Of a stretch of DNA of 64,000 nucleotides, positions 46,361 to 47,942 are shown piece after piece (position 1 is the stretch's first letter; each line of letters begins with the position of its first letter). The notes below the pieces were generated by a model, which was given only the letters and a program-made list of their open reading frames with translations, made no database searches and was not told where the DNA came from. Where the stretch lies: contig CALKIZ010000045.1 in assembly GCA_937995735.1 (NCBI GenBank), positions 44,464 through 108,463 on the forward strand, given 5' to 3'. The position numbers were made by a program, and so were the translations under genes. The DNA comes from an uncultured Neomegalonema sp. (GTDB lineage: Bacteria > Pseudomonadota > Alphaproteobacteria > Rhodobacterales > Rhodobacteraceae).

Positions 46361-46987
46361 TTAAGCTATCCGAGCGCGTTCCGCAGCATCACCGGCATTA
46401 ACCAAGGGAACACGAACACCGGGTTGTATATTCTTCGGGTCGTAAGGCGTCCGCGCAAACACGTCGCGAACCATCGGACGAAAGAAATCGAGCGGAAGAT
46501 CTTTATAGTCAGGATCAAAGCTCGCCTGATCCCACCTCTCACAAAATGCGGCACAGTCATCAAAATAGGCATGGCCGGAAAATTGATCCCGCTTATGAGG
46601 GTTCCCGCCAACATGCTGCGCGTAATAGATCATCTGAAAGTCGCCATGCTTTTCGACCGTCCACGTACATTGCTCACGGACAAAAGGCTTTATGATCGTC
46701 GCAGCGTATTCGTCATGATTATAAGGGGCATAGATATCGCCGATATCATGCAACAGCGTGGAGACAACCCAATCAATATCTGCACCGTCAAACCATGCCC
46801 GCGTTGCCGATTGCACCGAATGGCCCAGGCGCGTAACTTTATATCCTGACAGACTTTCATCAAGATCGCGCAACGCATCAAGCAACCGGTCCGCTGTCCC
46901 TTTGGTGTATTCGATTTCATGCTCAGTCAAGAAGGCATAATCTTCGGCATCGCCATCCTTCATCTGAGAGAATTTTACCTGATCCAT
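46361..46987 (-). CDS. HD-domain mixed-valent diiron oxygenase-like (PhnZ/TmpB-type)
   Basis: 208 aa. The metal-binding pattern is H56 (LGHS), HD at 80-81 (LLHDIGDIYAPYNHD), H91, H114 (EKHGDFQM) and D153 (ERWDQASFDP), six ligands for two metals. The spacing between H56 and H80 (24) matches PhnZ, which oxidatively cleaves the C-P bond of 2-amino-1-hydroxyethylphosphonate, and the wider family includes TmpB and myo-inositol oxygenase. Y49 lies seven residues before H56; PhnZ has a gating Tyr nearby. A simple HD phosphohydrolase is the alternative. The gene begins seven bases after the PhyH gene's stop on the same strand, as in phnY-phnZ pairs. The substrate is unknown. Confidence 0.7.
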   Translation of the reverse strand: MDQVKFSQMKDGDAEDYAFLTEHEIEYTKGTADRLLDALRDLDESLSGYKVTRLGHSVQSATRAWFDGADIDWVVSTLLHDIGDIYAPYNHDEYAATIIKPFVREQCTWTVEKHGDFQMIYYAQHVGGNPHKRDQFSGHAYFDDCAAFCERWDQASFDPDYKDLPLDFFRPMVRDVFARTPYDPKNIQPGVRVPLVNAGDAAERARIA

Positions 46988-46994
46988 ATCGGTC

Positions 46995-47858
46995 TCACAT
47001 GCTTGCCGCGTACGTGTTCAATTCGCCGGTCGCACCCTCTGCTAAAGCAGCACGTTGCGCCTCACGGATTTCTTCATAAATCGAAAGGGATGCGGAGTCG
47101 AATTCGCGGGCGGGTGGCGCAAAATGGATAAAGCTGCCCATGCGATCTACGCCCCGCGCCAACATCGCATAATCACGGTCTGCTACTTCCTGACGCGCGT
47201 TCGGATTGACGTAGCGGATCGCCAAACCAATCCGCCGATCCTTAGATGTATTCGGCCCCGAAGCATGGAACAACAAACCGTGGTGTAAACTCATCTCGCC
47301 GGGAGAAAGTTCAATATTCGTGGCATCCGCTTCGTCAACCTCGACGGCGATTTCCTGCCCCCGAGATAAAAGGTTATCAACGTCAAACGTATCATTATGC
47401 GGAACAATCGCTTGTTTATGAGATCCCGCAACAAACCGCATACAGCCGGACGCCACAGACACATCGGACAAAGCAATCCATGCGGTCACTTGATCTGATG
47501 TCTCGCCAAGCCCCCAATAAGTCAGGTCTTGATGCCATGAAACAACTTTGGTTGTATTTGTTTCCTTAATGAAAAAGTCTGCCCCCCAGATCATCAAATC
47601 CGGGCCGAGGACACCTTCGACGGCATCCAGGACAGCACGATCAAACGCGAGGCCGGAAACAAACGGTAAAACGATATGCGGGCTGGTGCGCAGGTACTGG
47701 CTGACATCATGTGGCAGTTTACGGGCCGCGTAGCGGGCCTCAACCTCTTCCAGCTTCTTTCGCAAATTTATTGCCGCATCCTCAGACATGACACGCAAAG
47801 GAAATAAGAAACCATCCTGCCAGTATTGGGCGACTTGATCTTCAGTGAGCTTTGACAT
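46995..47858 (-). CDS. PhyH-family 2OG/Fe(II) dioxygenase (PhnY/TmpA-type)
   Basis: 287 aa. The phytanoyl-CoA dioxygenase fold is marked by WHQDLTYWGL (His109, Asp111) and LHHGLLFHASGPNTSKDRRIGLAIRY, with His198 and Arg208 ten residues later completing the facial triad and 2OG binding. Conserved neighbours: ASGCMRFVAGSHKQAIVPHNDTF and the C-terminal HFAPPAREFD. It would hydroxylate a small substrate using O2 and 2-oxoglutarate. It is immediately upstream of an HD-domain protein, the arrangement of PhnY/PhnZ and TmpA/TmpB, where the first enzyme hydroxylates an aminophosphonate and the second cleaves it. No phosphonate gene lies nearby, so the substrate may differ. Confidence 0.85.
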   Translation of the reverse strand: MSKLTEDQVAQYWQDGFLFPLRVMSEDAAINLRKKLEEVEARYAARKLPHDVSQYLRTSPHIVLPFVSGLAFDRAVLDAVEGVLGPDLMIWGADFFIKETNTTKVVSWHQDLTYWGLGETSDQVTAWIALSDVSVASGCMRFVAGSHKQAIVPHNDTFDVDNLLSRGQEIAVEVDEADATNIELSPGEMSLHHGLLFHASGPNTSKDRRIGLAIRYVNPNARQEVADRDYAMLARGVDRMGSFIHFAPPAREFDSASLSIYEEIREAQRAALAEGATGELNTYAASM

Positions 47859-47917
47859 GAGCGTTCCTTAATAACACGACATTACTCCGTCATGCATAGG
47901 AGCGCTCGTCAAACGAA

Positions 47918-47942
47918 AAAACGACGCACAAGGCGTCGTTTT
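47918..47942 (-). terminator. Bidirectional-type terminator after the outer-membrane protein gene
   Basis: AAAACGACGC-acaag-GCGTCGTTTT is a perfect 10-bp stem. On the minus strand it is followed by TTCGTTTG, ending the outer-membrane protein transcript, 43 bp after its stop and 60 bp before the PhyH gene start. Confidence 0.85.

Follow-up and report, generated by a model that had tools for sequence, protein, structure and literature searches.

Only three HD-domain oxygenases, MIOX, PhnZ and TmpB, were listed in a 2020 review, which describes the same reductant-free diiron chemistry for all of them (PMC8177086). PhnZ and TmpB are each encoded with a hydroxylase. In PhnY/PhnZ, the 2OG hydroxylase gene is followed by the HD diiron oxygenase gene, and the substrate is 2-aminoethylphosphonate or, in the G. 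maris version, methylphosphonate; TmpA/TmpB, which acts on 2-trimethylaminoethylphosphonate, follows the same two-gene logic of a hydroxylase and an HD oxygenase. PhnY is PhyH-like, whereas TmpA belongs to the TauD/GBBH family, and the earlier note, which had taken both systems as PhyH plus HD pairs, was therefore right only for the first. To our knowledge, the characterised two-gene HD oxygenase systems all cleave C-P bonds.

The locus described here lies in a window of 64,000 nucleotides, the whole stretch of DNA analysed, from an uncultured Neomegalonema sp. As initially noted, a PhyH gene is followed after seven bases, on the same strand, by an HD gene, in agreement with the ORFs 47858-46995 and 46987-46361, both on the minus strand. 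The pair and its sites are arranged as follows.

46995..47858, minus strand: PhyH-family Fe(II)/2-oxoglutarate oxygenase gene, 287 aa, proposed hydroxylase (Pfam PF05721, AF2 model, clade)
47526..47534, minus strand: PhyH H109-Q-D111 facial-triad motif (conservation)
47265..47267, minus strand: PhyH H198, third facial-triad ligand (conservation)
47232..47234, minus strand: PhyH R209, invariant, likely the 2-oxoglutarate-binding arginine (conservation)
46361..46987, minus strand: HD-domain diiron oxygenase-like gene, 208 aa, proposed bond-cleaving enzyme (ligands, AF2, Foldseek)
46820..46822, minus strand: HD protein H56 codon, iron ligand 1, equivalent to PhnZ H34 (alignment)
46745..46750, minus strand: HD protein H80-D81 codons, HD dyad, equivalent to PhnZ H58-D59 (alignment)
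46736..46738, minus strand: HD protein D84 codon, in place of PhnZ H62 (alignment)
46715..46717, minus strand: HD protein H91 codon, iron ligand, equivalent to PhnZ H80 (alignment)
46646..46648, minus strand: HD protein H114 codon, iron ligand, equivalent to PhnZ H104 (alignment)
46634..46636, minus strand: HD protein Q118 codon, in place of PhnZ K108 (alignment)
46529..46531, minus strand: HD protein D153 codon, iron ligand, equivalent to PhnZ D161 (alignment)
47914..47940, minus strand: terminator-like hairpin of the upstream OMP gene, 8-bp stem AACGACGC/GCGTCGTT, then TTTTCG (by eye)

The hairpin, read by eye and absent from the output of a simple scan, suggests that the PhyH and HD genes form their own transcription unit, separate from the upstream OMP gene. 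No carnitine or choline gene was found among the scanned neighbours of the pair in the window.

The 287-aa ORF matches the Pfam PhyH model with 103 bits (E 3e-29). Its AF2 model (mean pLDDT 83.7) was matched by Foldseek to ThoJ (6zyl, E 1e-27) and to other PhyH oxygenases. The HxD...H triad, the conserved arginine and the PhyH fold expected of this family are all present. ThoJ (PDB 6zyk/6zyl), which has no established HD partner, is also its closest solved structure by phmmer (E 5e-44), at about 30% identity. Regarding the residues singled out previously, H109, D111 and H198 are indeed invariant across the compared sequences, but the fully conserved arginine is R209, R208 being nearly invariant. 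The model for PhnY of the G. maris type (NF052437) gave 14 bits against a cut-off of 500.

The generic Pfam HD model scored 17.9 bits on the second protein, under its 22-bit cut-off, and the HD assignment therefore rests on the ligands, the homologues and the structure model. First, the six candidate diiron ligands proposed in the earlier note, H56, H80, D81, H91, H114 and D153 (H..HD..H..H..D), were correctly positioned, and all are kept, being identical in 163 of 163 homologues. Secondly, an AF2 model built from 42 sequences (mean pLDDT 94.6, pTM 0.90) returned ten significant Foldseek matches in the PDB, all of them PhnZ or TmpB (E 3e-6 to 7e-5, target TM 0.61-0.70); these were the only matches below E 0.001, the next standing at E 0.4. 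Thirdly, a profile search with the HD family found PhnZ (E 9e-10) and then TmpB (1e-6) first. These results support a place for the protein among the HD oxygenases, with a predicted diiron centre.

To compare the pockets, the 163 family members were aligned with 30 Phn-HD proteins, PhnZ and TmpB. As in PhnY/PhnZ, the fold and all six ligands are shared; the substrate-site residues and the insert of PhnZ are absent, and the window protein keeps none of the non-ligand PhnZ/TmpB-type residues checked, each being substituted or deleted. In PhnZ numbering, Phn-HD proteins conserve Y24 (29/30), E27 (24/30) and H62, K108, S126 and R158 (each 30/30), positions that correspond in the window protein to L46, Y49, D84, Q118, a deletion and E150. 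Across the family, D84 is found in 160 and Q118 in all 163 members, the S126 position is deleted in all 163, and the R158 position is mostly E150. The YxxE loop described for PhnZ-type enzymes (PMC8177086), which gates the substrate, is mostly lost (Y in 6/163, E in 3/163), and the PhnZ active-site insert 111-140 is missing. In PhnZ, E27 binds the amino group of the substrate and H62 its hydroxyl (PMC7916636). Profile scores show the same distance: the window protein reached 25 bits with the Phn-HD model (TIGR03276, cut-off 214.6), 22 against 300 with G. maris PhnZ and 18 against 300 with TmpB (NF049941), and its partner is a PhyH protein, where TmpB has a TauD-family TmpA. In the tree, a fully supported branch, 4.7 changes per site long, separates the family from the Phn-HD proteins, in line with the earlier suggestion of a new subgroup. 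From its sequence, the window protein would thus represent a branch of HD diiron oxygenases with a pocket distinct from that of PhnZ/TmpB. Our literature search turned up neither this HD family nor a PhyH-HD pair of this type, and the branch is, as far as this search could find, biochemically uncharacterised.

The HD family occupies at least 590 loci in the genome collection and is present in 21 of 61 related genomes and, at strong E-values, in about 90 of 289 Alphaproteobacteria. Neighbours were examined at 165 HD loci, some of the context counts including contigs twice (e.g., L047/L070, L055/L068, L057/L069). PhyH lies directly upstream of the HD gene at 30 of these loci; among 29 usable pairs, it is upstream in 28 and downstream in one, with most gaps at -4 or -1 bp, that is, overlaps. 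The 28 HD-linked PhyH proteins group in a single clade (SH-aLRT 98) that leaves out the unlinked paralogues from the same genomes or related ones, and distances between HD proteins are correlated with those between their PhyH partners (r 0.85). The pairing is real and old, and the two genes are conserved together, though many HD relatives at the 165 loci have no adjoining hydroxylase gene. In many Rhodobacteraceae, the HD gene is kept in the same place, often before valS, without PhyH, which indicates that HD function does not depend on a neighbouring PhyH gene. In the small genomes of SAR11 (L139-L148), a single-copy HD gene is fixed between purF and gshA (glutamate-cysteine ligase).

Copy number also varies. 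Tandem side-by-side HD genes were seen at L186, L192 and L196 (G139, G328, G227), and genomes such as G326 contain up to six family matches. On the Pseudomonas syringae plasmid pB76-81 (L246), a two-piece match in an unannotated stretch is possibly a broken copy.

Quaternary amine genes recur among the neighbours of the HD relatives. Operons in which the HD gene stands between BKACE (beta-keto-acid cleavage enzyme) and carnitine 3-dehydrogenase were found at 26 of 165 loci, in Mesorhizobium and some Rhodobacteraceae; carnitine operons with HD also carry homologues of CoA ligase, acyl-CoA dehydrogenase and crotonobetainyl-CoA hydratase and a GbdR-like regulator. Carnitine dehydrogenase and HD genes co-occur (14/22 versus 76/267, p 0.001, by a statistic that ignores phylogeny). 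A GbcA-like Rieske oxygenase gene lies downstream of HD at three related loci and upstream at two others, and a taurine-dioxygenase-like gene is found at two. A TmpA-like dioxygenase gene stands directly upstream of HD at five loci and on one plasmid, pF045_1 of Pseudomonas aeruginosa (L241, 38260-50853), where the order is LysR, TmpA-like, HD, choline-binding protein, choline dehydrogenase and aldehyde dehydrogenase, the last being closest to betaine-aldehyde dehydrogenase. This plasmid cluster is apparently a mobile quaternary-amine catabolic unit. Around the other HD genes, a Pfam survey of the neighbours revealed no single theme. At L160 (G327), a DMSP demethylase (DmdA) gene was observed about 2 kb upstream of a TmpA-like-HD pair.

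The hydroxylase partner can be exchanged. The HD proteins of L164 and L166 are sister branches with a support of 99; the gene upstream is TmpA-like in L164 and PhyH in L166. Each locus has a divergent LysR gene, and the two regulators are each other's best match (57% identity), which argues that one hydroxylase has taken the place of another between the regulator and the HD gene. The ORF downstream of the L166 pair has no PDB match. We read this exchange as two unrelated hydroxylase families, TmpA-like and PhyH, occupying one slot and both supplying a hydroxylated substrate to HD. Given the kinship of the TmpA-like enzymes with TmpA and gamma-butyrobetaine dioxygenase, together with the carnitine and choline contexts, this substrate is probably a quaternary ammonium compound.

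We therefore propose that the window pair is a bicistronic two-step oxidative unit, likely acting on a non-phosphonate, with a carnitine/choline-type quaternary ammonium compound as the best candidate, and give this reading a probability of roughly 0.5. It draws on the observed pairing and its conservation, the ligand conservation, the fold match, the distinct branch and pocket, and the contexts of relatives. The oxidative two-step pair of the earlier note is supported, with a PhnZ/TmpB-type fold, six intact ligands and a partner conserved alongside. From these data, we infer the diiron content, the O2 chemistry, the order of the reactions and the class of substrate. PhyH, using Fe(II), 2-oxoglutarate and O2, would add a hydroxyl to a small molecule. 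The HD protein, as a mixed-valent diiron enzyme, would then bind the carbon that carries the hydroxyl to one of its irons and O2 to the second, abstract a hydrogen and cleave the bond adjoining the new CH(OH), without an external reductant. The candidate substrates would be of the class Me3N+-CH2-CH(OH)-X, yielding a glycine-betaine-type product, a class suggested by relatives that share 40-75% identity and may in part serve other functions. D84, Q118 and Y49 may set the new specificity of HD.

A first alternative, which we consider rather unlikely, is a variant phosphonate pathway in which PhyH hydroxylates C1 of an amino- or quaternary-ammonium phosphonate and HD cleaves the C-P bond through a different pocket. 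The HD fold is closest to PhnZ/TmpB, and some relatives stand behind TmpA-like enzymes, at the five loci and on the plasmid described above. In one genus (L174/L177; G262, G330), the TmpA-like-HD pair is directly followed by a pstS-family gene, with a phoR-like kinase gene nearby in L174, surroundings that hint at phosphate regulation and favour a phosphorus compound there. However, H62, K108, S126, R158, the 111-140 insert and most of the YxxE loop are lost, and the four TmpA-like partners scanned, although TmpA is their best model, reach only 334-353 bits, under its cut-off of 400. Moreover, the genome already holds a genuine TmpA/TmpB pair outside the window, on contig C3 of G000 (L065:8892-10612), where TmpA (568 bits, cut-off 400) adjoins TmpB (351 bits, cut-off 300), both above the NCBIfam cut-offs; the C-P lyase gene phnJ is absent from this genome, and the carnitine contexts of relatives also speak against a phosphonate. 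A phosphonate held in the way that PhnZ and TmpB hold theirs is thus an improbable substrate. Of the two leads left by the earlier note, the aminophosphonate is disfavoured and a different substrate preferred, given the lost pocket residues, the separate TmpA/TmpB and the carnitine and choline contexts. By eye, the genomic TmpA/TmpB pair adjoins a DMT-family transporter-like ORF and a dimethylglycine dehydrogenase-like ORF. The carnitine dehydrogenase gene of the genome lies elsewhere, away from the PhyH-HD pair.

A C-C cleavage of the MIOX type, in which PhyH would make a vicinal diol or alpha-hydroxy acid that HD splits into an acid and an aldehyde or CO2, on a substrate unrelated to quaternary amines, is likewise unlikely. 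D84 and Q118, at the H62 and K108 positions of PhnZ, are not phosphonate-like, one relative, from Phaeobacter, carries the label 'inositol oxygenase family protein', and the neighbours are varied (aldolase, dehydrogenases, fatty-acid hydroxylase). MIOX, too, is a mixed-valent diiron oxygenase of the HD type and arranges its ligands in the same pattern (PMC8177086). It has no hydroxylase partner gene, however, its structures gave no significant Foldseek match to the HD model in the PDB (E 1.6-2.5), Pfam MIOX (PF05153) was not listed for the HD protein at E up to 1, and carnitine and choline genes recur around the relatives. A MIOX-like C-terminal half of the HD protein was not borne out by Foldseek. 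A MIOX family search of 150 Pseudomonadota genomes returned no match even for its controls and has no bearing on this reading.

It is improbable that HD is an ordinary phosphohydrolase of the YfbR/YqeK type beside an unrelated PhyH. Relatives are automatically labelled 'phosphohydrolase' or 'HD domain-containing protein', and YqeK likewise has six ligands (PMC8177086). Nevertheless, hydrolases gave no significant Foldseek match to the HD model in the PDB (E about 1 or higher), so that a grouping with simple phosphohydrolases was not borne out, and the repeated pairing with oxygenases, the linked PhyH proteins forming one clade, also argues against it.

Finally, the idea that HD stands in for the betainyl-CoA thioesterase of carnitine operons, raised by the Mesorhizobium-type carnitine dehydrogenase without a C-terminal thioesterase half, was rejected as highly implausible, since five HD operons keep a full-length dehydrogenase with its own thioesterase half, the PhyH pairing would be left unexplained and we know of no HD thioesterase.

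Returning to a quaternary ammonium substrate, we tentatively extend the proposal to the whole family: partner-swapping HD diiron oxygenases, widespread in Alphaproteobacteria including SAR11 and roseobacters, may possibly cleave a C-C bond of hydroxylated quaternary ammonium compounds, for example converting carnitine analogues into glycine betaine. If true, such a C-C-cleaving HD class would provide an O2-dependent route beside that of carnitine dehydrogenase and BKACE. The substrate can be tested directly, as the enzymes are two and small and the candidates few. Surveys that take PhnZ-like HD genes as phosphonate genes could inflate estimates of phosphonate use. A separate branch of at least 590 relatives, with intact ligands, a new pocket and interchangeable hydroxylases, would extend the chemistry of HD oxygenases beyond phosphonates.
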